Shown piece after piece: positions 45,573 to 58,680 of a DNA stretch of 64,000 nucleotides (positions are counted from its first letter, which is position 1; every line of letters begins with the position of its first letter). The stretch is from assembly GCF_003002815.1 (NCBI RefSeq), contig NZ_PVTF01000006.1:1-64000 (forward strand), read 5' to 3'. The DNA comes from Umezawaea tangerina (GTDB lineage Bacteria > Actinomycetota > Actinomycetes > Mycobacteriales > Pseudonocardiaceae). The translations under genes and the position numbers were made by a program. Below the pieces are notes generated by a model, which searched no databases, was not told where the DNA came from, and was given only the letters and a program-made list of their open reading frames with translations.

Positions 45573-46298
45573 TTAGGCCAAGAAGCCGCGTAGTAGGGAT
45601 GCGGTGCCGTCGAGGTGTTCGGCCATGGCTTTTCTTGCCGCGTCCGGGTTGCCGTTGAGGATGGCGGTGATGATGCGTTCGTGCTGTTCGTTCGAGTGGG
45701 CGAGGTTGGGTTCGAGCAGGGGGATGGTGTCGAGGAGTTCGGTGACGCGCATGCGGACGTCGGCGACGGCGGCGGTGAGGGAGGCGGAGCCGGTTGCTTC
45801 GGCGATGGCCAGGTGGAGGCGGGAGTCGCGGCGGCGGTATTCGGTGATGTCGGAGGTGAGGCAGTCCTGGAGGCGGGCGCGGAGGTTGTGGTGGTCGGAC
45901 TGGTCCAGGGGGCGGGAGGCGGCGGATTCGGCGGCGCCGGATTCGAGGACGTGGCGGAGGGTGAGGGTGTCGGGGAGGTCGACGGGGCCGCGGTCGGAGA
46001 GGGGGTGGGGGGTGGGGAGGACGTCGTTGACGAAGGTGCCGCCGTAGCGGCCGCGGCGGGACTCGACGTAGCCGGCCTCGTGCAGGGAGCGGATGGCCTC
46101 GCGGAGGGTGACGCGGCTGACGCCGAGGCGGGTGGCGAGCTCGCGTTCGGCGGGCAGGCGGTCGCCGGGGACCGCGACGCCCAGCCGGATCGCTTGGAGC
46201 AGGCGTTCGACGGTCTCCTCGAACGCGTTGCCCGCGCGAACCGGCCGGAACACCGCGGCGTCCGCTGTGGACGGTGCCTCCCGCCGGGAACCGGTCAC
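45573..46298 (-). CDS. GntR-family regulator, FadR subfamily (FCD domain)
   Basis: 241 residues. Winged HTH at about 25-90 (LLQAIRLGVAVPGDRLPAER, ELATRLGVSRVTLREAIRSL, GYVESRRGRYGGTFV). An all-helical FCD ligand domain follows with the metal-binding pattern (SRLHLAIAEATGS, NEQHERIITAILNGN). It is the last gene of the amine-catabolism operon, starting one base into the SDR stop (GTG at 46296-46298), and probably autoregulates it. The 3' half is strongly C/A-rich in the coding strand. The effector is unknown but likely a gamma-glutamyl intermediate or amine. Confidence 0.9.
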   Translation of the reverse strand: MTGSRREAPSTADAAVFRPVRAGNAFEETVERLLQAIRLGVAVPGDRLPAERELATRLGVSRVTLREAIRSLHEAGYVESRRGRYGGTFVNDVLPTPHPLSDRGPVDLPDTLTLRHVLESGAAESAASRPLDQSDHHNLRARLQDCLTSDITEYRRRDSRLHLAIAEATGSASLTAAVADVRMRVTELLDTIPLLEPNLAHSNEQHERIITAILNGNPDAARKAMAEHLDGTASLLRGFLA

Positions 46299-47065
46299 TA
46301 CAACGGGGTCACGTAGGCGCCGGAGATGCCGCCGTCGACCAGGAAGTTCGACGCGGTCATGAACGACGAGTCGTCGCTGGCCAGGAACGCGACCGCGGCG
46401 GCGATCTCCTCGGGCTCGGCGAACCGGCCGAGCGGCACGTGCACGAGGCGGCGGGCGGCGCGTTCGGCGTCCTTGGCGAACAGCTCCTTGAGCAGCGGGG
46501 TGTTCACCGGGCCGGGGCTCAGCGCGTTGACGCGCACGCCGTCGCGGGCGAACTGGACGCCGAGCTCGCGGCTCATCGCCAGCACACCGCCCTTCGACGC
46601 GGTGTAGGCGATCTGCGAGGTGGCGGCGCCCATGGTGGCGACGAAGGACGCGGTGTTGATCACCGAGCCCTTGCCCGCGTCGAGCATGTACGGGATGACG
46701 TACTTGCAGCACAGGTACACCGAGGTCAGGTTGACCCTGTTCACCCGCTCCCACGCCTCGATGCCGGTGGTCAGGATCGAGTCGTCCTCGGGCGGCGAGA
46801 TGCCCGCGTTGTTGAACGCGATGTCGATCCGCCCGTGCATGCCGTGCACGGCGGCGTAGAGGGCGCGGACCTCCTCCTCGCTGGTCACGTCGACCGGGTA
46901 GAAGTCGCCGCCCAGCTCCTCCGCGGCGGCCTTGCCCGCGGTCTCGTCGATGTCGACGACCACGACCCTCGCGCCCTCCGAGGCGAGCCTGCGCGCGGAC
47001 GCGAGCCCGATGCCGCTGCCGCCACCGGTGATGACCGCGACGCGGTCCTCCAGCCGTCGTACCAT
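46298..47065 (-). CDS. Short-chain dehydrogenase/reductase
   Basis: 255 residues. Rossmann motif VITGGGSGIGLASARRLASEG (about 11-31), NNAG at about 89-92, and catalytic Ser/Tyr/Lys in NTASFVATMGAATSQIAYTASKGG. DIDETAG after strand 2 suggests NAD rather than NADP. It sits between aldehyde dehydrogenase and the FadR-type regulator with one-base overlaps. In a gamma-glutamyl-amine pathway it could oxidise a hydroxylated (amino-alcohol) intermediate before the aldehyde step. That role is inferred, since SDR sequence does not reveal substrate. Confidence 0.88.
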   Translation of the reverse strand: MVRRLEDRVAVITGGGSGIGLASARRLASEGARVVVVDIDETAGKAAAEELGGDFYPVDVTSEEEVRALYAAVHGMHGRIDIAFNNAGISPPEDDSILTTGIEAWERVNRVNLTSVYLCCKYVIPYMLDAGKGSVINTASFVATMGAATSQIAYTASKGGVLAMSRELGVQFARDGVRVNALSPGPVNTPLLKELFAKDAERAARRLVHVPLGRFAEPEEIAAAVAFLASDDSSFMTASNFLVDGGISGAYVTPL

Positions 47066-48438
47066 CAGATCCGCTCCTCAGACGAGATGAACACGTTCTT
47101 GGTCTCGGTGAACGACGCGAGCGCGTCGGGACCGAGCTCCCGGCCGAGACCGGACTGCTTGAAACCGCCGAACGGCGTGGAGTACCGCACGGACGAGTGG
47201 GAGTTGACCGACAGGTTGCCCGCCTCGACACCGCGGGAGACGCGCAGCGCGCGGCCGACGTCGCGGGTCCAGATCGAGCCGGACAGGCCGAACTCGCTGT
47301 CGTTGGCCAACCTGACCGCGTCGGCCTCGTCGGTGAACCGGAGCACCGACACGACGGGGCCGAAGATCTCCTCGACCGCCGCCGGGTCGCTCGGCGACAC
47401 GGGCGCGAGAACCGTTGGGGGGAACCAGTAACCGGGTCCGTCGGGGGCGCTGCCGCGGAACGCGACGGGCGCGTCGGACGGCACGTAGGACGAGACCTTG
47501 GCGTGGTGGGCCGCGGAGATCAGCGGGCCCATCTCGGTCTTGTCGTCACCGGGCGCGCCGACGACGACGCCCTTGACGGCCGGTTCGAGCAGTTCCATGA
47601 AGCGGTCGTAGGCGCTGTCCTGCACCAGGATCCGCGACCGGGCGCAGCAGTCCTGGCCCGCGTTGTCGAACACGCCGTACGGCGCGGTGGCGGCGGCCCG
47701 CTCCAGGTCGGAGTCGGCGAACACAATGTTCGCGCTCTTGCCGCCCAGCTCCAGGGTCACCCGCTTCACCTGGTCCGCGCAGCCCGCCATGATCTGCTTG
47801 CCCACGGCGGTGGAGCCGGTGAACACGACCTTGCGCACGTCCGGGTGCGTGACGAACCTGTTGCCCACCACCGAACCCTTGCCGGGCAGGACCTGGAACA
47901 CGTCCTCCGGGATGCCCGCCTCGCGGGCCAGCTCGCCGATCCTGATGGCCGTCAACGGGGTCAGCTCGGCGGGCTTGAGCACCACGGTGTTGCCCGCCGC
48001 GAGCGCGGGCGCGAAGCCCCAGCCCGCGATCGGCATCGGGAAGTTCCACGGCACGATCACGCCGACGACGCCGAGCGGCTCGTGGAACGTGACGTCGACC
48101 CCGCCCGCGACCGGGATCTGCCTGCCGAACAGGCGTTCCGGGGCGGCGGAGTAGTAGTGCAGCACGTCGCGGACGTTGCCCGCCTCCCAGCGCGCGTTGC
48201 CGATGGTGTGCCCGGAGTTGAGCACCTCCAGGGCCGCCAGCTCCTCGACCGCCGCGTCCACGGCGTCGGCGAACCGGCGCAGCAGCCTGCCGCGGTCGGC
48301 GGGCGTGACGTCGCGCCAGGCCGGGAAGGCCTTCCGGGCACGGGCGATCGCCGCGTCGGTCTCCTCGAGCGGGACGAGGTCGACGGTGCGCACGACCTCC
48401 TCGGTCGCCGGGTTGATCACGTCGAACGTGCTGGTCAC
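47065..48438 (-). CDS. NAD(P)-dependent aldehyde dehydrogenase
   Basis: 457 residues. VPWNFPMPIAGWGFAPALAAGNTVVLKPAE (about 141-170), FTGSTAVGKQIM, catalytic Glu in VTLELGGKSANIV, and the nucleophile Cys in NAGQDCCARSRI. Operon context (GlnA-like ligase, PuuD-like hydrolase) points to gamma-glutamyl-aminoaldehyde or a related semialdehyde as substrate, as for PuuC in putrescine use. The GTG at 48436-48438 overlaps the upstream hydrolase stop (GTGA). The length is slightly short compared with typical 480-500 residues but all motifs are present. Confidence 0.9.
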   Translation of the reverse strand: MTSTFDVINPATEEVVRTVDLVPLEETDAAIARARKAFPAWRDVTPADRGRLLRRFADAVDAAVEELAALEVLNSGHTIGNARWEAGNVRDVLHYYSAAPERLFGRQIPVAGGVDVTFHEPLGVVGVIVPWNFPMPIAGWGFAPALAAGNTVVLKPAELTPLTAIRIGELAREAGIPEDVFQVLPGKGSVVGNRFVTHPDVRKVVFTGSTAVGKQIMAGCADQVKRVTLELGGKSANIVFADSDLERAAATAPYGVFDNAGQDCCARSRILVQDSAYDRFMELLEPAVKGVVVGAPGDDKTEMGPLISAAHHAKVSSYVPSDAPVAFRGSAPDGPGYWFPPTVLAPVSPSDPAAVEEIFGPVVSVLRFTDEADAVRLANDSEFGLSGSIWTRDVGRALRVSRGVEAGNLSVNSHSSVRYSTPFGGFKQSGLGRELGPDALASFTETKNVFISSEERI

Positions 48439-49145
48439 CTGCTGGTCCTCTCCTTCGCGGTGCGGACCAGTGCGGCGAACAGCCGCACGTCCTCGATGTC
48501 CTGCTCCGGGTGCGACTGCACGCCGAGCACGAAGCGGGCGCCCGCCAGCTCGACCGCCTCGACCAGTCCGTCCGGCGCGGTCGCGACCACGCGCAGACCG
48601 GTACCGAGCACGTCCAGGGCCTGGTGGTGGTGGCAGTGCACGGTCGTGCGCGCGCCGACGATCCCGGCCAGCGCGCTGTCCGGCACGACCTCGACCTCGG
48701 TGCGCTCGAACACGCCGGGGCTCGGGTTGTGGCCGGGGACGTGCTGGTGCAGCGTCCCGCCGAGGGCGGTGTTGAGCACCTGCATGCCCCGGCACACGCC
48801 GAGCACCGGCAGGTCGAGCTTGAGAGCGGCGTCCAGCAGCGCGAACTCGGTGTCGTCGCGGCTCTGCCGCGACGGACCGGTCAACGGGTGCGGCTCCTGG
48901 CCGTAGCTCGCCGGGTTGAGGTCGGCGCCGCCGGTGAGGACGAGGCCGTCGAGCCAGCCGAGGGTCTCGGCCCGCCAGTCGCCACCGGGCGGCAGCAGCA
49001 CGGGGTTGCCGCCCGCCAGCCGCACCGAGTCGAGGTAGGCCTTGTGCAGCACGGCGGCCTCGGTGTCCCAGACGCCGAACCTGGTCGGCTCCAGGTACGT
49101 GGACAGGCCGATCAGCGGCCTGGTCTCAGAGCCGTTCGAAGCCAC
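48435..49145 (-). CDS. Gamma-glutamyl-gamma-aminobutyrate hydrolase-like (PuuD, class I GATase)
   Basis: 236 residues. Nucleophile Cys in LPVLGVCRGMQVLN (about 110-123), His and Glu in FVLGVQSHPEQD. RPLIGLSTYLEPTRFGVWD at the N-terminus and GGADLNPASYGQEP are typical of the peptidase C26/PuuD group. It would remove the gamma-glutamyl group from the oxidised product, regenerating glutamate. A GTG start (49143-49145) lies inside the 3' end of the upstream ligase gene, with 20 bp of overlap. Second gene in the operon. Confidence 0.92.
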   Translation of the reverse strand: MASNGSETRPLIGLSTYLEPTRFGVWDTEAAVLHKAYLDSVRLAGGNPVLLPPGGDWRAETLGWLDGLVLTGGADLNPASYGQEPHPLTGPSRQSRDDTEFALLDAALKLDLPVLGVCRGMQVLNTALGGTLHQHVPGHNPSPGVFERTEVEVVPDSALAGIVGARTTVHCHHHQALDVLGTGLRVVATAPDGLVEAVELAGARFVLGVQSHPEQDIEDVRLFAALVRTAKERTSR

Positions 49146-50487
49146 GGATCCGCTCCCAGTCGGTGATCGCGGCGTCGAACGCCGTCAGCTCGACCTTGGC
49201 CGCGTTGAGGTAGTGGTCGACCACGTCGTCGCCGAACGCCTCGCGGGCCAGCGCGCTGCCGGCGAGCGCGGCGGCGGAGTCGCGCAGCGTCGTGGGCACG
49301 GTGTCGCGGTCGGAGCTGTAGGCGTTGCCGGTGAACGGGTCCTCCAGCGCCAGCCCGTCGTCCACGCCCTTGAGCCCGGCCGCGATCAGCGCGGCCACGG
49401 CGAGGTAGGGGTTCACGTCGCCGCCGGGCACCCGGTTCTCGAACCGCAGCGACTGGCCGTGGCCGACGACCCGCAGCGCGCACGTCCGGTTGTCGTGGCC
49501 CCAGGCGATGGCCGTCGGCGCGAAGCTGCCGGGCACGAAACGCTTGTAGGAGTTGATGTTCGGGGCCAGGAAGTAGGTCAGCTCGTGCAGGTGGGCCAGC
49601 TGGCCCGCGAGGAAGTGCTCCATCAGCTCGGTGAACCCGTGCTCGCGGTCACCGGCGAACGCCGGCTGGTCGTCGTCGGTGCGCAGGCTCAGGTGGATGT
49701 GGCAGGAGTTGCCCTCGCGCTCGTTGTACTTCGCCATGAACGTCAGGCTCTTGCCGTGGTTCGCGGCGATCTCCTTGGCACCGGTCTTGTAGATGCTGTG
49801 GTTGTCGCAGGTGGCCAGCGCCTCGGTGTAGCGGAACGCGATCTCGTGCTGGCCGGGGTTGCACTCGCCCTTCGCCGACTCCACCTGCATCCCCGCGCCC
49901 TCCATGCTGTTGCGGATGTCGCGCAGCAGGGGCTCGATCCGGCCGGTGCCCAGCATCGAGTAGTCGACGTTGTACTGGTTCGCGGGCTTGAGCCCGTGGT
50001 AGGCCTTGTCCCAGGCCTGCTCGTAGGTGTCGTTGAAGACGATGAACTCCAGCTCGGTGCCCACGAACGCCCGCAGCCCGCGCGCGGCGAGCCGGTCGAG
50101 CTGGCGCTTGAGGATCTGCCGGGGCGAGGCGGTGACCAGGTCGCCGTTCTCCCACTGCAGGTCGCACACGACCAGCGCGGTGCCCTCCTGCCACGGGATC
50201 CGGCGCAGCGTGGTCAGGTCCGGGAGCATCACGAAGTCGCCGTAGCCGGTGTCCCACGACGACATCGCGTACCCGCCGACGGTGTTCATGTCGACGTCCA
50301 CGGCCAGCAGGTAGTTGCAGCCCTCGGTGGCGTGCGACAGCACCTCGTCGACGAAGTACCGCGCGGCGCACCGCTTGCCCTGCAACCGGCCCTGCATGTC
50401 GACGACGGCGACCAGCACGGTGTCGATGTCACCCGCGTCGACGGCCACGCGGAGCTCCTCGACCGTGAGCAAACCCTCGCTGCGCAT
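49126..50487 (-). CDS. Glutamine synthetase-like gamma-glutamyl-amine ligase (GlnA3/GlnA4/PuuA type)
   Basis: 453 residues. VAVVDMQGRLQGKRCAARYF near the N-terminus, the GS beta-grasp, catalytic FVGTELEFIVFND, GECNPGQHEIAF and HGKSLTFMAKYNE, NSCHIHLSL, and GHDNRTCALRVVGHG. Compared with true glutamine synthetases, the ammonium-site region is altered and the C-terminal adenylylation loop is absent. This fits enzymes that glutamylate polyamines (GlnA3) or ethanolamine (GlnA4) in Streptomyces. The operon with hydrolase, aldehyde dehydrogenase and SDR supports amine catabolism. Which amine cannot be told. AAGGGA precedes the ATG. First gene of the operon. Confidence 0.92.
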   Translation of the reverse strand: MRSEGLLTVEELRVAVDAGDIDTVLVAVVDMQGRLQGKRCAARYFVDEVLSHATEGCNYLLAVDVDMNTVGGYAMSSWDTGYGDFVMLPDLTTLRRIPWQEGTALVVCDLQWENGDLVTASPRQILKRQLDRLAARGLRAFVGTELEFIVFNDTYEQAWDKAYHGLKPANQYNVDYSMLGTGRIEPLLRDIRNSMEGAGMQVESAKGECNPGQHEIAFRYTEALATCDNHSIYKTGAKEIAANHGKSLTFMAKYNEREGNSCHIHLSLRTDDDQPAFAGDREHGFTELMEHFLAGQLAHLHELTYFLAPNINSYKRFVPGSFAPTAIAWGHDNRTCALRVVGHGQSLRFENRVPGGDVNPYLAVAALIAAGLKGVDDGLALEDPFTGNAYSSDRDTVPTTLRDSAAALAGSALAREAFGDDVVDHYLNAAKVELTAFDAAITDWERIRGFERL

Positions 50488-50653
50488 CGCGGTCCCTTCC
50501 CTAAAGGTCTACTGCGGAACCATTGCAGCTATTGCTACACGGGCTCACCAGCGCTGTCAACGGATGCCTTGCGCAGGCGGACGCGCGTCATCACCTGGCA
50601 CTCCCGCGCGGTCCGCCACCGTCAAAAGGCCTGTCGGGCACGCGGTGGACCGC

Positions 50654-52090
50654 TCAGCGAACTCGTTCCCGGAGCCACTTCACCAACTGCTCAGCCTGAT
50701 CCCGAACCGAAGGATCGCGCAGGCACAACTGGGCCATCTCGTCGACGAACTTGCGCCTGCCACCCAAGACCCGCGACAGTTCGATCACCCAATCGTGGTG
50801 GTCCAGCCCGTCGTACCGTTCCAACGCCAACTGCAGCGCGTGCCGACCTCCGGGGAACGACGGCGTCCACTCCGGGTCGGCGTCCGCGCGCCAAGCGGCA
50901 GCGAGGTCCCGCATCACCTCTTCAGGAGCGACATCCCCCATCAGGTAACCGAACTCCGCGCCTTCCGCACGCTGATCGCCGTCCAGGACTCCCAGGACGG
51001 CGAACGCCGTCGAGGACTCGGAAGCCTTCAGTTCGGCAACGGTTCGCCTCACGCCTGACTCACCCGACTCCGCGAACTTGATGCTCACCTTGGAAGCCAG
51101 GTCAGGAGCGGTGTGGTCCAACACCGACGCGAGGAACTCCGCAGCGACCACGTCCTCCACGACAAGAATGGCGTCACGCGCGGGCTGGAGCCCCAGGTGC
51201 TGCGCGACCTCGGAGGTCGTCAGTCCGGAACGGATCAGCGGGACAGGTGACGCGCTGAGCATGATCGCGTGATCCAGAGGCAGTCGATGGATGAACCCCG
51301 GCGAGTGGCTCGACACCACCACCGTCAGATCCCTCTCCACGACGATTCCCACCACGACTTCCGCCAGAGCCTGCTGGGAGAACACGGCCAGATGACTTTC
51401 CGGCTCCTCGAGAAGAACCACCGACCCTTTCTCGACAGCACCAAGCCTCCAGATCAGGTATGCGGCGGCCAGCTCGCCGCGACCCATCTGAGTGAGGTCG
51501 TACTTCTGTCCCATAGATTCGAGCGTGAAGAAGGGCGTCGGCGTGTCGTCTTCACTGAAGGCCGTGATCTCGAAAACGTTCACTTCGGTGTAACTGCGCC
51601 GCAGCACGTATGACAGCAGATCGACCTGCTCCGCAAAGAAGGGCGCCGAGTCGATCCCTTCGACGAGGTCACCAGGGTTGTCGTCCTGTCGGATCAACGT
51701 GAGGATCCGCTCTGTTTCTGCGGATGCGTCGATGTAGACGACGGGGATCGGGCAGGTCCCACTCCGCGTCGCGCTTGCGCAGTCGTAGTGCGCTTCCCAA
51801 ATCTCACCGTGGTAAGAACCTTTCACGGTGATACCGGCGAGCCAGTACGGCACACGTGCGAAGGTGGATGACTCCGCTTGATCATCACCCAGACAACGCA
51901 GGATCGCGCCTAGCATCGACGACTTGCCCGCACCGTTGCCACCGCAGACAACGGTTACCCCAGGAGCGAAAACCATTTCATGACTACCCGCCTCGGAGCC
52001 GTTCAGCAACGCCGAGGTCAGCGACGTCGTGTATTTTCGCCGCGCCAAGCTCGTAAACGTTTTTTCACGTTCCGCAAACCTCACAACCAT
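50654..52090 (-). CDS. ABC-type AAA ATPase with C-terminal Toprim-like domain (OLD-family-like)
   Basis: 478 residues. Walker A VVCGGNGAGKSS (47-58), ABC signature-like QMGRGELAAAYLIWRL (201-216), Walker B VVLLEEPESHL (224-234) and H-loop VVVSSHSPG (257-265). The C-terminal third has Toprim-like acidic positions: E312 in ILVVEDVVAAEF and D370/D372 in VLGVLDGDQR. This ATPase-plus-Toprim plan is that of OLD nucleases (GajA) and of PARIS-type AriA/AriB proteins. The start overlaps the upstream DUF262 gene by 10 bp (or a GTGA overlap at 52084), so the two proteins are coupled. The region is visibly less GC-rich, which suggests acquisition. Probably nucleic-acid-directed defence, by inference. Confidence 0.82.
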   Translation of the reverse strand: MVVRFAEREKTFTSLARRKYTTSLTSALLNGSEAGSHEMVFAPGVTVVCGGNGAGKSSMLGAILRCLGDDQAESSTFARVPYWLAGITVKGSYHGEIWEAHYDCASATRSGTCPIPVVYIDASAETERILTLIRQDDNPGDLVEGIDSAPFFAEQVDLLSYVLRRSYTEVNVFEITAFSEDDTPTPFFTLESMGQKYDLTQMGRGELAAAYLIWRLGAVEKGSVVLLEEPESHLAVFSQQALAEVVVGIVVERDLTVVVSSHSPGFIHRLPLDHAIMLSASPVPLIRSGLTTSEVAQHLGLQPARDAILVVEDVVAAEFLASVLDHTAPDLASKVSIKFAESGESGVRRTVAELKASESSTAFAVLGVLDGDQRAEGAEFGYLMGDVAPEEVMRDLAAAWRADADPEWTPSFPGGRHALQLALERYDGLDHHDWVIELSRVLGGRRKFVDEMAQLCLRDPSVRDQAEQLVKWLRERVR

Positions 52091-53244
52091 TCTTTGCCGC
52101 CCCACCTGTTGGCGGCCGCCCAGTCACTCAGCCGCTTCTCCGGACTGGGCCCGGTACCCGTCACCTTCCAAGCCTCGACAGCTTGCTGCAGGAATACCGC
52201 GTCGCGCACGCCCACCCGGCTGTCACGCACGAAGATCATCCACCCCGTGAGGTCGCGCAGCATCACCGAGGACGTGTCCGCGACCCTCGATGTGGACCTG
52301 TCGTGGAACACCCCCAACGCCTTGGACCTCGGATCCTCGTCCGCGGCACTGCGATTCAACCGCGCCCGCTCCACGTACTCCACCGTGGCCGCCAACTCCG
52401 ATCGCATACCCTGGAGGATGCCGTGCCTGTGGAGCTTGGCCGCCATGCAGAGCCACGAGTGGATGGTCGCCTTGTTGGGCTTCAACCCGCCCACCCTGTT
52501 GTCGAGGAGGTCAAGCCCCAGGAAGAAGTTCAGGGACGCCTTGGCCGCGACCACGACGTCCTCGGAGAACGAAAGAGCGTCCCGGTACCTGTTGGTTATC
52601 CGCGCCGCGGTGACCTTCTCCAGCAAAGTCCGCTGCTCCAACGTGATGAGGAACCTTGCAAGAAGGTCGTCATAACTCATCCGGGCATTCGAGAAACCGA
52701 TTCTACTCGCTTCCATGCCGATAGCCTCGGACCACTTGACGAGATCCTTGACCTGGTTCCTCGGCCCGCCGATGAACGCGTTCCTCTTCTCGGCTTCGGT
52801 CAGGGCCGTGGGCTGATTCAAGCGAAAAAAGAGCTCGTGCGGTTCCTGCGGTGTGTAGTCATGGAGTTCGAATACTCGGATCGGGAAGCTCTCGAACTGA
52901 TTTCTGACGCCTTCAGGAAGTTGGTTGAACCGCAGCCCGTCCAGTGTCTGCAATTTCTCCTCGTGCGGCTCGATGCTGGCATCGACACCGAACAGTCCGT
53001 CGACAAAATCCCGGATGGCGGTCAAGCGCTGCTGACCGTCCAGGACGTCGAAAAGTCCCTCGTCCTTAGCTACGAGGTGAATGGGAGGCACGTGCCACCG
53101 TCGCAGGATGGTGTCGATCAGACGTTGCTTCTTGTTCGTGGACCAAACCTCACCTCGTTGGAACTCAGGTTGGAGGTCGATCACTTTGCGCTCGATCCTG
53201 CGCACGATCGTCGCGATATCCGGATCACTGGTATTGAACTGCAC
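52081..53244 (-). CDS. DUF262 domain protein (GmrSD/ParB-like N-terminus)
   Basis: 387 residues. The N-terminal DUF262 signature is clear: DLQPEFQRGEVWSTNKKQRL (23-42), IDTILRRWHVPPIHL and DVLDGQQRLTAIRDF (66-80) with the DGQQR nucleotide-binding motif, then FFRLN-type QEPHELFFRLNQPTALTEAE. DUF262 acts as an NTP-dependent component of modified-DNA restriction enzymes and other anti-phage systems. The usual C-terminal DUF1524/HNH nuclease block (H-x-x-P) is not evident. The rest is helical and Ala/Leu-rich. A GTG at 53242-53244 follows GGGAGG by 4-5 nt. It forms a two-gene operon with the ATPase/Toprim gene, which may supply the nuclease function. Confidence 0.85.
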   Translation of the reverse strand: MQFNTSDPDIATIVRRIERKVIDLQPEFQRGEVWSTNKKQRLIDTILRRWHVPPIHLVAKDEGLFDVLDGQQRLTAIRDFVDGLFGVDASIEPHEEKLQTLDGLRFNQLPEGVRNQFESFPIRVFELHDYTPQEPHELFFRLNQPTALTEAEKRNAFIGGPRNQVKDLVKWSEAIGMEASRIGFSNARMSYDDLLARFLITLEQRTLLEKVTAARITNRYRDALSFSEDVVVAAKASLNFFLGLDLLDNRVGGLKPNKATIHSWLCMAAKLHRHGILQGMRSELAATVEYVERARLNRSAADEDPRSKALGVFHDRSTSRVADTSSVMLRDLTGWMIFVRDSRVGVRDAVFLQQAVEAWKVTGTGPSPEKRLSDWAAANRWGGKEWL

Positions 53245-53655
53245 TACACCTCCCGACGGGTAACCCGGATCACAGTACACCGGAAGAATAGACCGAGATC
53301 CCGCGAGGCCGTTTACCCACAGCGGAGACCGAGCCGTCCCGCAGCCGTCCGATTGGCTCGATCACATCGACGCACCCGACAAGTCGGTGACACTCGAACC
53401 GCCGCTCTCGGCATCCCCGCCCCGAGTGCGGAGGGAATCTTCACCCTGCACCTGTCACTGAATCCACCATTTGGCGGATCAAGGGGGAGGTCGTGGGGTA
53501 ACCCAGTGGATGTTTCCTGGGCTTTCCCTCCGCGTCACCAAGATGGAAAACACGAACGGTTACCGGGATCACTCGAACGAGTTAGGGTGTTGGCCGCCAG
53601 GTCTGGGGGCCTCTGCTGGTAGCTCACGACGTCCCCTTCCGACGAGGGGTCACAC
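53245..53655. other. Divergent intergenic region with GGTAACC-type palindromes
   Basis: No gene recognised. CGGGTAACCCG (53257-53267), GGGTAACCC (53496-53504) and CGGTTACCGGG (from 53557) are related palindromes. The first and third are both followed by GATCAC. They may be operators for the DUF262 operon and/or the secreted lectin-like gene. A GAGGGG ribosome site precedes the GTG at 53656. Confidence 0.45.
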
Positions 53656-55548
53656 GTGAGAGCCAGACAGCTCGCCCTGTTCGCCACCGCAGGCCTGGTC
53701 GCGACGACGCTCGCCGCGATCTCGGCGCCCGCCGCGCACGCCGTCGGCGCCACCTGCGCGCCCGCGGCCCGCATCATGGTGGTGAAGGCCGACGGGACGC
53801 TGTGGAAGTACGACCACACCGGTGTCGCCGAGGGCGTGAACTCGTGGGGAGCGGCCGCGCAGATCGGCTCCGCGTGGGGAGGCCGCACGCTGGCGGGCCC
53901 CGACGGCGTGGTCTACAACATCACCGACACCGGTGAGCTGCGCCGCTTCCGCTACACCGACACCGGCGGCTGGGCGACGTTCCCGAACGGCCTGGGCTAC
54001 GAGGTGCTCGGCACCGACTGGGAGGCCTACGTCGACGAGGCGTGGCGCGACCGGATCGCCGTCGACTCGCTCGGCCACCTCTACGCCGTCGACGTCGACA
54101 ACCACCTGCGCGTGTGGGTGGACCAGCCCGGCCCGTGGCTGCCCAACTCCACCGGGCGGCTCGTGGACGCGCGCAAGACCGGTCCCCTGGTGTTCGGCGA
54201 GATCACCGCGGCGGGCCCCGGCGTGATCCTGGAGCGCGACTTCTTCACCGGCGAGCTGCGCCGCTACCGCTACGAGTACGCCTCGCAGCGCATGGTCGTC
54301 GAGCCCGTCGTCTCGGGCTCCGGCTGGGGCGCGTTCAGCACGGCCTTCTCCCCCGGCGGCGACGTGATCTACGGGATCCGCGCCGACAACGGCGAGCTGG
54401 ACTGGTTCCGCTACGACCAGGACACCAACACCACCCCCAGCCCGACCGCGCGGATCGTCGGTACCGGGTGGAACGGCAACAAGGACGTCATGGCCGTCCC
54501 CAACTCGTGCGACCGCACCGATCACGTGGTCACCCCGCGCCCCGCCGTCGTCCAGGCGCAGAACACCCCGAGCTCGGTGGCGGAGACCGCGAACGGCCTG
54601 CTCGTGCAGTACCGGGTCAACAACTCCGGCCAGCTCGTGAAGCTCACCGAGAAGGCCAACGGCACCGGCTTCAGCCAGAAGGTCGTCGCGAACACCGCCG
54701 TGAACGGCGTGCCGCAGGGTGTGCTGAACCCAGACCTGCCCGAGGAGGTCTTCGCGGGCGCCCAGAACAGCGAGGTGCTGCGCGGCGACAGCACGGCGCT
54801 GGCCGTGTCGCTCGGCGGCTTCTTCCCCACCGAACCGGCCGCGGTCAAGCGGTCCGGCGGCCGCACCGCGCTGTACGCGGTCGGCGAGGACGGCGCGCTG
54901 TGGGCGACCAAGCGGGTCGAGGACGAGGGCGACTTCGGCGCCTGGCGCAAGGTCGGCGGCACGAACCTGGTCGGCCCGGCGGCCGCAGTGGTCGGCGACA
55001 ACGACGGCGAGTGGGTCGTCGCGCGCACTTCCACCGGCTCGGTCGTGCGCTACCGGCAGGACGAGGACGGCGTGCCCGGCGAGCTCGTAGACCTCGGCGC
55101 GGTCGGGGCCGCGGGCACCCCCGCACTGGCGATCTCCAACGGCAAGCTGTGGACCGCGACCCGCGACACCTCCGGCGGCGTCCAGGTGCAGCTCGGCACC
55201 GGGGGCTGGGTGGGCGTGCCCGGTGTCGCGGCGGCGGGCTCGCCCACGATCACCCGCTACGGCGACCGGGTCGAGCTGGCCGTGCGCGACGCCGCCGGCC
55301 GGGTCTACACGACCGGCACCGTCGGCGTGGACACCCCGGTGTTCCGGCCGTGGACCGAGGTGCTGGAGGACTCCGACGACGCGGGCTCGCACGTGAAGGC
55401 CGTGCTGGACCCGACCCTGTTCACCAGGGCCGACGGCGCGGTGGCGCTGGTGTTCCGCAACGTGCACCCCGGCGTGACCGTCGAGGAGCTCTACGACGCG
55501 GCGCCCGACCAGCTGACCCCGGACTACGTGCGGGCCTTCGGGGCCTGA
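53656..55548 (+). CDS. Secreted tachylectin/PLL-like beta-propeller protein
   Basis: 630 residues. The signal peptide MRARQLALFATAGLVATTLA...AHA ends at about residue 29. Residues about 40-290 contain repeating units like GTLWKYDHTG, GELRRFRYTD, GELRRYRYEY and GELDWFRYDQ, a tachylectin-like propeller. Residues about 400-620 have GALWATKRVEDEGDFGAWRKVGG and GRVYTTGTVG repeats of the PLL lectin type. Such proteins bind sugars on surfaces. No catalytic domain visible. It starts with GTG after GAGGGG and ends in a hairpin terminator. The target glycan is unknown. Monocistronic. Confidence 0.82.
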   Translation: MRARQLALFATAGLVATTLAAISAPAAHAVGATCAPAARIMVVKADGTLWKYDHTGVAEGVNSWGAAAQIGSAWGGRTLAGPDGVVYNITDTGELRRFRYTDTGGWATFPNGLGYEVLGTDWEAYVDEAWRDRIAVDSLGHLYAVDVDNHLRVWVDQPGPWLPNSTGRLVDARKTGPLVFGEITAAGPGVILERDFFTGELRRYRYEYASQRMVVEPVVSGSGWGAFSTAFSPGGDVIYGIRADNGELDWFRYDQDTNTTPSPTARIVGTGWNGNKDVMAVPNSCDRTDHVVTPRPAVVQAQNTPSSVAETANGLLVQYRVNNSGQLVKLTEKANGTGFSQKVVANTAVNGVPQGVLNPDLPEEVFAGAQNSEVLRGDSTALAVSLGGFFPTEPAAVKRSGGRTALYAVGEDGALWATKRVEDEGDFGAWRKVGGTNLVGPAAAVVGDNDGEWVVARTSTGSVVRYRQDEDGVPGELVDLGAVGAAGTPALAISNGKLWTATRDTSGGVQVQLGTGGWVGVPGVAAAGSPTITRYGDRVELAVRDAAGRVYTTGTVGVDTPVFRPWTEVLEDSDDAGSHVKAVLDPTLFTRADGAVALVFRNVHPGVTVEELYDAAPDQLTPDYVRAFGA

Positions 55549-55554
55549 GCCGCT

Positions 55555-55596
55555 GGTCGTGGAACAGGGCTGGCGCGCACGTCCTGTTCCACGACC
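55555..55596 (+). terminator. Hairpin terminator after the lectin-like gene
   Basis: GGTCGTGGAACAGG (55555-55568) pairs with CCTGTTCCACGACC (55583-55596). It begins 6 bp after the stop and ends 15 bp before the next gene. Confidence 0.9.
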
Positions 55597-55611
55597 TGGC
55601 ACCATCGCGGT

Positions 55612-56475
55612 GTGAGCGACATTCAACGTGTGGGCGTGGTCGGGTCCGGGCTGATGGGTTCGGGGATCGCCGAGGTGTGCGCGCGGGCGGGCCTCGACGT
55701 GCTGATCGCCGAGGTCGACCTGGGCGCCACCGAGGCGGCGAAGGCGCGGATCGCGACCTCGCTGGGCCGGGGCGTGCGCAGCGGCAAGCTGTCCGAGTCC
55801 GACCGCGACGCGGCGCTGGACCGGATGCGGTTCACGACCGACGTGGCCGACTTCGCCGACCGCAACCTGGTCGTCGAGGCGGTCGCGGAGAACGAGCAGG
55901 TCAAGACCGACGTGTTCACCGCGCTGGACAAGGTCGTCGAGGACCCGGACGCGATCTTCGCGTCGAACACCTCGTCGATCCCGATCATGAAGCTGGGCAT
56001 GGCCACCAGCCGTCCCGAGCAGGTCATCGGGGTGCACTTCTTCAACCCGGTGCCGGTGCTGAAGCTGGTCGAGCTCGTGCCGTCGCTGCTGACCGGCCAG
56101 CAGACCCAGGACCGGGCGCGCGACTTCGTGACGACCGTGCTGGGCAAGGAGGTCATCCGGTCGCAGGACCGCGCGGGCTTCGTGGTCAACGCCCTGCTGA
56201 TCCCCTACCTGCTGTCGTCCATCCGGATGCTGGAGTCCGGGTTCGCGTCGGCGGAGGACATCGACAGCGGCATGGTGCTGGGCTGCGCCCACCCGATGGG
56301 CCCGCTGCGGCTGACCGACCTGATCGGCCTGGACACCACGAAGGCCATCGCCGAGTCGATGTACGACGAGTTCAAGGAGCCGCTGTACTCCCCGCCGCCG
56401 CTGCTGCTGCGGATGGTGGACGCCGGCCTGCTCGGCAAGAAGAGCGGCCGCGGCTTCCACAACTACGCCGGGTGA
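55612..56475 (+). CDS. 3-hydroxybutyryl-CoA dehydrogenase
   Basis: 287 residues. N-terminal Rossmann domain GVVGSGLMGSGIAEVCARAG (about 8-27) and the 3HCDH signature with catalytic His in VIGVHFFNPVPVLKLVELV (about 138-156). A C-terminal dimerisation domain follows with GFVVNALLIPYL and GCAHPMGPLRLTDLIGLD. It interconverts acetoacetyl- and 3-hydroxybutyryl-CoA (beta-oxidation, butyrate or PHB-type metabolism). It matches the stand-alone FadB2/Hbd group. Flanked by hairpins on both sides, so it is transcribed alone. Confidence 0.93.
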   Translation: MSDIQRVGVVGSGLMGSGIAEVCARAGLDVLIAEVDLGATEAAKARIATSLGRGVRSGKLSESDRDAALDRMRFTTDVADFADRNLVVEAVAENEQVKTDVFTALDKVVEDPDAIFASNTSSIPIMKLGMATSRPEQVIGVHFFNPVPVLKLVELVPSLLTGQQTQDRARDFVTTVLGKEVIRSQDRAGFVVNALLIPYLLSSIRMLESGFASAEDIDSGMVLGCAHPMGPLRLTDLIGLDTTKAIAESMYDEFKEPLYSPPPLLLRMVDAGLLGKKSGRGFHNYAG

Positions 56476-57131: not shown

Positions 57132-57451
57132 CCGGCGCTGTTCGTCCACCTGCGGACTACCGCACACGAGCGCTGTTTGCCGGCCCGCGAAAGACCGACA
57201 TGTGATAGCGCGTGCCGTGCCGGGATCCCAGCCGGTGAGCAGGACATCCGACCCTTTCACCAGAATCGCCGCGCAATACCGGTCTCGATTTCCGCAACTT
57301 CAGTTAAGTTCACAACCCCGGTGAATGCGCGGAAATCACCATCGGTAACGATCGGGACGGCCAGGCTACTGCAATCGAATGAACTTCCCTGAGACGGCCA
57401 AGCCGATCAGACCAGCCACCCCTGGGTCGTCGATCCACAAGTGGCCCTTAA
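57132..57451. other. AT-richer intergenic region before the prenyltransferase operon
   Basis: No gene or RNA family recognised. The segment 57290-57480 is much more A/T-rich than the surrounding genome and ends in the predicted promoter. Confidence 0.4.
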
Positions 57452-57479
57452 TTGACGCTTGACGACAAGTCAATAGTGT
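57452..57479 (+). promoter_or_regulatory. Predicted promoter with overlapping dyad for the prenyltransferase operon
   Basis: TTGACG (57452-57457) and TAGTGT (57474-57479) with a 16-bp spacer resemble a main-sigma promoter. The sequence TTGACGCTTG ACGA CAAGTCAA (57452-57473) is an imperfect dyad covering the -35 and spacer, a natural place for a repressor. Confidence 0.45.
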
Positions 57480-57493
57480 GAAGGTTCACTCAT

Positions 57494-57541
57494 ATGCGAG
57501 TCAACCGTTCCTGCATTCGGGTGGACAAGTACGTCTACTAA
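57494..57541 (+). CDS. Putative 15-residue leader peptide or RiPP precursor
   Basis: ATG CGA ... TAC GTC TAC TAA encodes MRVNRSCIRVDKYVY. A GAAGG sequence lies 9 nt upstream. The stop codon sits in a small hairpin, CTACT-AAAG-AGTAG (57535-57548), and the prenyltransferase starts 41 bp later. The C-terminal Y-V-Y resembles aromatic-x-aromatic cores of P450-crosslinked peptides such as cittilins. Alternatively it is a translational leader. If the promoter at 57452 is right, the ribosome site would be nearly leaderless. Only protein or ribosome data can decide. Confidence 0.45.
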   Translation: MRVNRSCIRVDKYVY

Positions 57542-57582
57542 AGAGTAGCTTTCCCTGCGCCACGGACAAGGAGTGTCGCACC

Positions 57583-58680
57583 GTGAACAGCACAGACGTC
57601 TCGATTCGAGATTTCGGCAGCCGACAGTTGCACGCACTGCTACATTCCGTCCACCTGGGCGATCTCGCGAATAATTCAATCGAACTCTTGTGCGAATCAC
57701 TCGGGCCAGGTGGGTTTCGACCATTGTCCACAGTGCCTGCTTGGACTTCCGGGGTGGCCGACGACGGCACGCCGTTCGAGTTCTCCACGGCTTTCGCCGA
57801 GGGCCAGCCGACCACGGTCCGCGTCCTGCTGGAGCCGACCGCCGCGGACCCCAGCCCGATGGGCAACATGGACGCCGCGGTCGACGTGCTGGAGGCGCTG
57901 AGCCGTCGCCACCACCTGCCGCTGGACCGCTTCGAGGCCGTGCGCGACCTCTTCCTCCCCTCCGACCCCCAGGGCCACTTCTCGCTGTGGCTCTCCCTGG
58001 TGTTCCGCAAGGACGCCCCACCGGCCGTCAAGGTGTACCTGAACCCCGAGGTGCGCGGTGAGGCCGAGGCTCCGCTCCTGGTCAGCGAGGGCCTGGCGCG
58101 ACTGGGCTACGGCGCGGGGCACGCCACGATCGTCGAGCACGCCCGTCGGCGCGGCGACGGGCTGGACCACTACTCGTTCTTCGCGCTCGACCTCAACGAC
58201 TCCCCCAGCGCGCGGGTCAAGGTGTACCTGTCGCACCGGGACGCCACCGCCGACGACGCCGCCCGCGCGGCGGTCGGGGCGCGCGGCGTGTCCGGCGACA
58301 GCGTGCGCGACTTCTGCGTGATGAGCAGCGGCGGCGCGGGGCCGTACACGGAACGGCCGCTCGTCTCCAGCTACACGTTCCTGCCGGGCGACGTCGACCG
58401 GCCACGGGGCTACTCGCTGTACATGCCGGTCAGGACCTATGTCAACGATGACGTGGAGGCCCGCGAACGGGTCCTCGCGGTGCTGGACCACCACCGCATG
58501 GACCCGGCGCCGTTCGAGAACGCGCTCGCCGCCGTCTCCCGTCGTCCGCTCGCCGACGGTGTCGGACTCATCGCCCACGTGTCCCTGCGCGCGGGCGTGC
58601 CCCGACCGGGGGTCACCGTCTACCTGTCGTCCGAGGCCTACGCCAAGGCGTCACCGCGAGTAGCAACACTGGTCAGCTAG
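57583..58680 (+). CDS. DMATS-type aromatic (tryptophan/indole) prenyltransferase
   Basis: 365 residues. ABBA-fold pattern: WTSGVADDGTPFEFSTAF (54-71) with E66 at the position that orients the indole NH. The diphosphate-binding strands are PAVKVYLNPEVRGE (K150, Y152), SARVKVYLSHRD (K213, Y215) and PGVTVYLSSEA. Bacterial members move dimethylallyl to C5, C6 or C7 of tryptophan. An AAGGAG site precedes the GTG at 57583 by 9 nt. It is followed 16 bp later by tryptophanase, as in streptomycetes that make dimethylallyl-indoles, where prenyl-Trp is cleaved to prenyl-indole. Regiochemistry cannot be read from the sequence. Confidence 0.9.
   Translation: MNSTDVSIRDFGSRQLHALLHSVHLGDLANNSIELLCESLGPGGFRPLSTVPAWTSGVADDGTPFEFSTAFAEGQPTTVRVLLEPTAADPSPMGNMDAAVDVLEALSRRHHLPLDRFEAVRDLFLPSDPQGHFSLWLSLVFRKDAPPAVKVYLNPEVRGEAEAPLLVSEGLARLGYGAGHATIVEHARRRGDGLDHYSFFALDLNDSPSARVKVYLSHRDATADDAARAAVGARGVSGDSVRDFCVMSSGGAGPYTERPLVSSYTFLPGDVDRPRGYSLYMPVRTYVNDDVEARERVLAVLDHHRMDPAPFENALAAVSRRPLADGVGLIAHVSLRAGVPRPGVTVYLSSEAYAKASPRVATLVS

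Follow-up and report, generated by a model that had tools for sequence, protein, structure and literature searches.

In GmrSD-type enzymes, the DUF262 domain is presumed to be a sensor of modified DNA and controls a fused HNH nuclease by means of nucleoside triphosphates (NTP), and SspE is described as sensing phosphorothioate (PMC10952713; PMC12137116). OLD proteins have an ATPase that is coupled with a Toprim nuclease, and the partners of the OLD classes are a helicase, a reverse transcriptase or none (PMC10568477). In the PARIS system, a Toprim tRNase is released once the ATPase AriA has sensed anti-restriction proteins (PMC12409363, PMC12839542), and a review assigns a Toprim domain to one component of the Menshen system, which lacks DUF1524 (PMC10952713). 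Here, we describe a gene pair that brings a DUF262 protein together with an OLD-like ATPase. It is encoded on the minus strand at positions 50654-53244 of a stretch of 64,000 nucleotides from Umezawaea tangerina (assembly GCF_003002815.1, contig NZ_PVTF01000006.1, positions 1 to 64,000 of the forward strand), hereafter the window, and comprises two intact, overlapping genes, the first for a DUF262 protein and the second for an ABC-type ATPase whose C-terminal domain is Toprim-like. It is rather probable that the pair is a mobile two-gene defence module, in which a DUF262 NTP switch would control an OLD-like nuclease and thereby protect the host against phage.

Seen from the DUF262 side, the DUF262 and ATPase-Toprim genes form a real, conserved unit. 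Relatives were collected by a pattern-based scan with a three-sequence DUF262 alignment, which covered 84,980 species with one genome per species and from which the best 80 of 87 relatives were kept. The ATPase-Toprim gene lies directly downstream and on the same strand at 54 of the 57 loci of the window's DUF262 clade; whether the genes are neighbours in other genomes had been set beforehand as a test by the preliminary description, which had been made from the sequence of the window, and the expected co-occurrence was not refuted. The three misses comprise a locus at which the contig ends 320 nt further on (L086) and two at which the DUF262 gene is in pieces or a fragment (L124 and L140). 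The other DUF262 clade, whose members are mostly about 495 aa long, has the ATPase partner at 0 of 21 loci, the fair count being 0 of 19 because L135 and L156 have less than 350 nt downstream; no ORF (open reading frame) was obtained for the remaining 2 of the 80 loci. The clades were split by length and score, with L147, L150 and L156 assigned to the other clade by hand and the rest, fragments included, counted as the window's clade. The proteins of the other clade, which lack the ATPase partner (L135, L137-L139, L141-L157), stem from Nitrospirota, Chloroflexota, Acidobacteria and others. At least one gene of the pair is truncated or broken up at L113, L114, L118, L124, L131 and L140, either by decay or through an assembly error.

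The two genes overlap in 49 of the 56 listed pairs, a count in which two records are listed twice and overlaps are drawn to the farthest start. Distances among the DUF262 proteins correlate with those among the ATPase-Toprim proteins (r = 0.81 for 50 pairs; the highest value in 2,000 permutations was 0.15), a correlation to which the common ancestry of the hosts contributes. The hosts in the tree belong to five phyla, namely Actinomycetota, Bacillota, Pseudomonadota, Bacteroidota (one host) and Hydrogenedentota (one host). The clade is nevertheless rare, as only 4 of 396 genomes of the window's phylum, that of the window included, reach an E-value of 1e-30 with DUF262 (a match to the DUF262 protein only). 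Among five actinobacterial members, pN/pS ranges from 0.23 to 0.58, with synonymous sites near saturation, and the conservation pattern fits purifying selection under which the catalytic residues are kept.

Both genes lie where the preliminary description had placed them, as two intact, overlapping ORFs on the minus strand at 52081-53280 (399 aa, DUF262) and 50654-52105 (ATPase-Toprim), and the right end given there, 53244, coincides with the best start of the DUF262 gene. The GTG at this position is the likely start, because GGGAGG is found just upstream and Met occupies the corresponding column in 44 of 50 aligned family members. The ATPase ORF has two possible starts, GTG 52105 (483 aa) or ATG 52090 (478 aa), which result in a gene overlap of 25 nt or 10 nt, respectively. 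ATPase residues are numbered here according to the 483-aa form and DUF262 motifs according to the 399-aa ORF; the acidic residues first described as E312, D370 and D372, which had been counted from ATG 52090, are E317, D375 and D377 in this numbering, and each is present in 50 of 50 sequences. The DGQQR motif expected in the DUF262 protein is indeed there and near-invariant over the 50 pairs (D81, G82 and R85 in 50, Q84 in 48 and Q83 in 47), accompanied by an FxxxN motif with F151 in 48 and R153 and N155 in all 50. The GmrSD_N family (PF03235) covers residues 24-170, and Pfam at E-values up to 1 matched no nuclease family, DUF1524 and HNH included, over the rest of the protein, in agreement with the earlier view that it lacks such an end; a DUF1524/HNH nuclease domain was matched in neither protein of the pair. 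Judged by these matches, the DUF262 protein is a predicted GmrSD/BrxU-type sensor domain without the HNH end. Its AlphaFold2 model, built with 40 sequences, has a mean pLDDT of 86.8, and the nearest folds in the PDB are BrxU (E 3e-3), then Noc and ParB, none of which reaches an E-value of 0.001 or better (Foldseek).

The second protein had been described as an ABC-type ATPase with a Toprim-like C-terminus; the ATPase and the acidic residues were borne out, whereas the Toprim domain is recognised only remotely. The N-terminal ABC ATPase with Walker A, Walker B and H-loop that is required of the OLD family is present and is matched by the Pfam family AAA_21. The AlphaFold2 model (44 sequences) has a mean pLDDT of 91.6; its best match in the PDB is the OLD protein of Thermus scotoductus (6p74, E 4.2e-13), followed by GajA of Gabija, and retron ATPases and SMC heads are close (Foldseek). 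The whole-length TM-scores of the best matches are low (0.3-0.4), and the fold comparison therefore says more about which domain families are present than about how exactly they are arranged. When PDB sequences were searched with a profile, OLD ranked first (2.9e-20), ahead of a retron ATPase and AriA of PARIS, with each match lying in ATPase regions.

For the C-terminal part, Pfam at E-values up to 1 gave only a chance-level flavodoxin match with the window's protein, and the family OLD-like_TOPRIM matches 1 of 30 family members (1.4e-4). The modelled order of secondary structure elements (strand 312-316, helix 319-332, strand 340-344, helix 348-361, strand 369-374; AlphaFold2) fits a Toprim domain, and a profile alignment with Toprim domains, for which 6 of 10 OLD loci were kept by a motif filter, is in register over 99 columns (52% probability, E 1.4e-4; hhalign). 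Comparisons with the six OLD loci as single sequences lent no support for five of them and reached 68.7% for L175, and a search of the PDB with the C-terminal profile returned no Toprim chain. In PADLOC, the best match of the ATPase protein is HEC-04 (2.8e-16) and the fifth is ATPase-Toprim_I-B (2.3e-10); these are the only profiles that also match the C-terminal part (1.7e-4 and 4.1e-3, respectively). The Toprim-like assignment, remote as it is, rests on the invariant E...DxD residues, the strand-helix order, the Pfam hit, the PADLOC profiles and the profile alignment. In the T. scotoductus protein (TsOLD), E377, D431 and D433 bind the first metal, and D381, S478 and E480 bind the second (PMC7049728). 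E317, D375 and D377 correspond to the first-metal set; the position four residues after the glutamate (E+4, here A321), which is acidic in OLD and provides a ligand of metal B, is Ala in 45 of 50 members, and the second metal would therefore be held otherwise or be absent.

The genomic context suggests that the pair was acquired. In the same-genus genome G250, two blocks that are 92.5% and 92.9% identical to window positions 45652-50562 and 53581-56469 are separated by 141 bp, compared with 3,018 bp in the window (blastn), and the DUF262 gene is confined, among three genomes of the genus, to that of the window. The segment between the flanks (Table 1) has a G+C content of 61.8%, whereas the rest of the window has 70.6%; 2 of 610 stretches of this size (step 100) are as low, and the lowest of them starts at 50501, over the segment itself. 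An A/T-rich cassette acquired as an island, as had been proposed, thus agrees with the base composition and with the empty site in G250. A single comparison cannot tell a gain in the window from a loss in G250, but a gain is favoured because of the odd base composition of the segment, and the two-gene module is apparently mobile. Terminal repeats or target duplications were not evident at the segment ends, either by eye or among the listed repeats. On inspection by eye, GACACCCCG-like repeats occur several times and in both orientations within the 141-bp stretch of G250 (L167:8269-8409). The G+C content dips a second time (54%) at window positions 57250-57750, at the start of an ORF (57478-58680) whose product may resemble an aromatic prenyltransferase.

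The same observations bear on the idea that the two genes have no role in defence and act in chromosome or plasmid maintenance as a ParB-like protein with an SMC/OLD-like ATPase. The ParB fold is common to DUF262 proteins, with the weak matches mentioned above, and the head of the ATPase is similar to those of SMC and Rad50; however, the pair is rare and patchy, being present in one of three same-genus genomes and with three further matches at 1e-30 among the 396 genomes of the phylum, G250 has an intergenic gap of 141 bp at the site, and the nuclease-like residues are kept. We therefore regard a maintenance function as very improbable.

Table 1. Positions of the segment, the two genes and their motifs in the window, with strand and supporting evidence (conservation over the 50 aligned pairs).
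Feature	Position	Strand	Evidence
Segment absent from same-genus genome G250, holding only the two genes and short flanks	50563..53580		blastn of flanks; G+C content
DUF262 (GmrSD_N / ParB-fold NTPase) protein, 387 aa, first of the pair, helical C-terminal half	52081..53244	-	PF03235, 1.4e-19; AlphaFold2
OLD-like ATPase-Toprim protein, 483 aa, second of the pair	50654..52105	-	AAA_21, 9.2e-14; AlphaFold2; Foldseek
GGGAGG, likely ribosome-binding site ahead of GTG 53244	53249..53254	-	Sequence
DGQQR nucleotide-pocket motif, residues 81-85	53026..53040	-	Alignment of 50 pairs
Walker A, GGNGAGK, residues 55-61	51923..51943	-	G55, G60, K61 49/50; N57, G58 48/50
ABC signature-like G210-E211	51473..51478	-	50/50 each
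Walker B, LLEEPE, residues 231-236	51398..51415	-	E234, P235 50/50; E236 43/50
H-loop H267-S268	51302..51307	-	50/50 and 49/50
Toprim-like first acidic motif E317-D318	51152..51157	-	50/50 each
Toprim-like DxD motif, D375-G-D377	50975..50983	-	D375, D377 50/50; G376 47/50
Family-specific H437-D438 motif, C-terminal helical part	50792..50797	-	50/50 each

The neighbourhood of the pair was examined by clustering 513 ORFs within about 6 kb of 54 loci (53 relatives and the window); the resulting maps may hold false ORFs because genes were picked crudely, by G+C at third positions or as the longest ORF. No third conserved gene was found in this set, as no cluster spans more than 7 of the 54 loci and the larger ones read as restriction-modification (R-M) genes, ABC transporters and ordinary genes. 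In addition, 147 neighbours, that is up to two genes upstream and one downstream of each of the 53 pairs without ORFs below 110 aa or above 1,500 aa, were selected for a scan with PADLOC, which covered 143 proteins and left out four of the largest, and nine larger or chosen neighbours were scanned separately. Type I, II, IIG or Dnd genes were found within 6 kb of the pair in 15 of the 53 relatives. These 15 loci represent about eight lineages of the tree, because L106 and L112 as well as L132 and L133 are alike and the five type II loci belong to a single clade. Genes of type I systems (HsdR, HsdM or HsdS) occur near the pair at L088, L103, L106, L112, L116, L132 and L133, at L103 by clustering only. 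In Actinokineospora fastidiosa (L133, identical with L062), the order at L062:4461-17232 is HsdR, DUF262, ATPase-Toprim, HsdM, HsdM, HsdS and a second HsdR; the pair thus lies within a type I operon whose layout is unusual in having two HsdR genes as well as two paralogues of HsdM, and Amycolatopsis taiwanensis (L132) has the HsdR, pair, HsdM, HsdM, HsdS portion of this layout. At L092, a type IIG enzyme precedes the pair, and at L111, L117, L120 and L130 a type II methyltransferase lies beside it, together with an uncharacterised protein of about 358 aa; of these two, L121 has the latter only, cut by a contig edge. This protein is a candidate restriction enzyme (L130:5935-7011, L111:5847-7013, L117:5915-6934, L120:9534-10565, L121:100-645), and its L130 member has no PADLOC match at 1e-40. 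DndH adjoins the pair at L119, which has further genes in common with L123; we take these to be DndC and DndB. Very large proteins of 1649 and 1244 aa are encoded upstream of the pair at L098:1836-6785 and L094:777-4511, respectively, without a PADLOC match at 1e-40. In the window, the gene downstream of the pair reads as glutamine-synthetase-like. By reading of the clustered neighbours, without a GajB profile search, no helicase except the HsdR type recurs beside the pair; together with the Pfam result, this agrees with the initial notion of a pairing without a helicase or HNH partner, neither of which was seen.

Modification systems of several chemistries lie close to the pair in some relatives, which would fit a sensor of the modification state; a guard of those systems that resembles PARIS would fit as well. 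In the latter case, the ATPase-Toprim protein would be a suicide effector, either a tRNase or a nuclease, which fires when a phage anti-restriction protein attacks the restriction or Dnd system of the host, and the DUF262 protein would be its holder or a sensor. The OLD-type ATPase with its Toprim-like part and the presence of AriA among the profile matches speak for such a guard, as do the 15 loci with R-M or Dnd genes. However, the Toprim-like part is fused to the ATPase here, the partner is a DUF262 NTPase, and no restriction or Dnd system was found next door in 38 of the 53 relatives or in the window; a PARIS-like guard is therefore rather unlikely. It is nonetheless one of the two leading readings, the other being the modification sensor, and sequence data do not settle which of them applies. 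PARIS itself, which combines the ATPase AriA and the Toprim nuclease AriB without DUF262, was rejected as an assignment, since AriA matches the ATPase regions only and a DUF262 neighbour is found at 54 of the 57 loci collected from the DUF262 side.

The reading as a DUF262-controlled nuclease starts from direct observations: the regular pairing as followed from DUF262, catalytic residues that are conserved, folds at the level of models, the empty site and the proximity of R-M or Dnd genes in some relatives. The two proteins would be made together from one operon. The ABC ATPase head would serve as an ATP-gated platform, and the Toprim-like domain would cut nucleic acid, presumably DNA rather than tRNA, by means of its E...DxD metal site. 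The DUF262 protein would be a ParB-fold NTP switch of the GmrSD/BrxU/SspE kind without a nuclease of its own, which it would have lost or never possessed; because of this lack, and because an OLD-like nuclease is encoded alongside, we take the DUF262 protein to be the sensor or licence and the ATPase-Toprim protein to be the cutter. In a putative complex with its partner, the DUF262 protein would detect foreign DNA or a disturbed state of DNA modification and then release the nuclease, and the outcome would presumably be protection against phage.

Several points weigh against this reading. The Toprim domain is recognised only remotely, Ala stands in most members where OLD has an acidic residue at E+4, and the fold match of the DUF262 protein is weak. 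The pairing was followed from the DUF262 side; on the ATPase side, where 11 of 20 chosen loci hold an ATPase homologue at 1e-3, 3 of these 11 distant-homologue loci have a DUF262 neighbour according to phmmer (L061, L062 and the Menshen locus L063). The loci L064, L065, L067, L068 and L071 encode distant ATPase-Toprim homologues of about 490-510 aa in relatives of the same order and have no DUF262 neighbour by phmmer. Searches that were not exhaustive found no R-M gene beside the window copy or in 38 of the 53 relatives, and the 57 neighbours of the other DUF262 clade include methyltransferases and other matches to defence models (29 families); because the other clade has such neighbours, we claim no enrichment over DUF262 proteins generally, and the link may be theirs at large. 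In viral contigs, 23 pattern matches were obtained, none of them a relative, and the window's DUF262 protein, searched without its partner, matches 122 plasmid and 32 phage records at 1e-5, none of them over 80% of its length. A Pseudomonas relative found nothing in plasmids at 1e-20 or in phages at 1e-15, nor did a Lachnospiraceae relative in phages at 1e-15. Of the original proposal of an uncharacterised defence system, the conserved co-occurrence, the signs of acquisition and the lack of a visible HNH or helicase partner have held, and the defence function itself stays an inference.

Among the named systems, Menshen is the closest to the pair, and the best PADLOC match of the DUF262 protein is NsnA (7.1e-36); this match is confined to residues 13-212 and to positions 44-241 of the 385 in the profile. 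A complete canonical Menshen locus with NsnA, NsnB and NsnC in a genome of the same order (L063:6648-9898, G214) was used as a yardstick, and its proteins match PADLOC at 1.9e-130 (NsnA, nearly full length), 1.3e-114 (NsnB) and 2.4e-91 (NsnC). The DUF262 protein aligns with this NsnA at 99% probability over 198 columns, in the N-terminal half only, and the ATPase protein aligns with NsnB over 75 columns around Walker B and the H-loop, whereas NsnC gave no meaningful alignment (1.6% probability; hhalign). The NsnC model PDLC03879, the only one run on the genome, finds NsnC in L063 and gave no match in the window's own genome (0 of 1) or in 14 control genomes. Both systems thus place a DUF262 protein next to an AAA_21-type ATPase, and their N-terminal DUF262 domains align well; however, Menshen has three genes rather than two, the C-terminal half of the DUF262 protein is unaligned, and the ATPase protein of the pair, at 483 aa, has a C-terminal Toprim-like domain, whereas NsnB has about 345-380 aa without the extra part. 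With NsnA half-aligned, NsnB aligned over 75 columns, NsnC not found and no recurring third gene, canonical Menshen was rejected. A two-gene form of Menshen, with the DUF262 protein as NsnA and with NsnB and NsnC fused or replaced by the ATPase-Toprim protein, would account for the NsnA match and for the Toprim domain reported on one Menshen component (PMC10952713), but the partial alignments with L063 and the missing NsnC speak against it, and we consider it improbable. The pair therefore does not correspond to the PADLOC model of Menshen, although it may function in a similar way.

The pair shares with GmrSD, BrxU and SspE the DUF262 NTPase domain with DGQQR and FxxxN, and BrxU is its best, albeit weak, fold match; those enzymes carry DUF1524-HNH, whereas no such match was found here and the nuclease candidate is a separate OLD-like protein. 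With OLD classes 1-4 (P2 Old, GajA of Gabija, retron OLD and PARIS), it has in common an ABC ATPase, with a C-terminal domain that is remotely Toprim-like, and the E, D, D first-metal triad, but it differs by the DUF262 partner, the length of about 480 aa, the Ala at E+4 and the extra invariant H-D. In WonAB and GrwAB of V. cholerae, WonA is an OLD-ABC ATPase and GrwA and GrwB carry DUF262; however, WonB is a PD-(D/E)xK protein, GrwA ends in DUF1524, and in the excerpts of PMC12137116 neither system combines DUF262 with an ATPase-Toprim protein. The PADLOC candidates HEC-04 and ATPase-Toprim_I-B match the ATPase protein including its C-terminal part, but partially and weakly. The open-access literature that was searched, a scope outside which work on Menshen variants and on the classification of ABC ATPases falls, yielded no description of the pair in the parts available. 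The claim that no named system matches it stands for Menshen as modelled, GmrSD and PARIS, each of which misses a defining feature, and is less fully tested for Gabija. More tentatively, and with some doubt, the pair might represent a further kind of OLD system, in which a separate DUF262 NTPase reads DNA modification and licenses an OLD-like Toprim nuclease; it would then amount to a portable type IV restriction enzyme with an exchanged nuclease, docked repeatedly onto type I, II, IIG and phosphorothioate systems across several phyla. The small, intact pair, which is sometimes linked to methyltransferase or Dnd genes, makes it testable whether DUF262 senses DNA modification and whether it can control a nuclease to which it is not fused, and it would help to sort the relations among Menshen, GmrSD and OLD systems. 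Taken together, the pair is a good candidate defence system, which joins two recurring parts of immunity, a DUF262 sensor and an OLD nuclease, in a minimal two-gene form conserved over phyla, and is best seen as a variant of the DUF262-plus-OLD theme rather than a wholly new kind.

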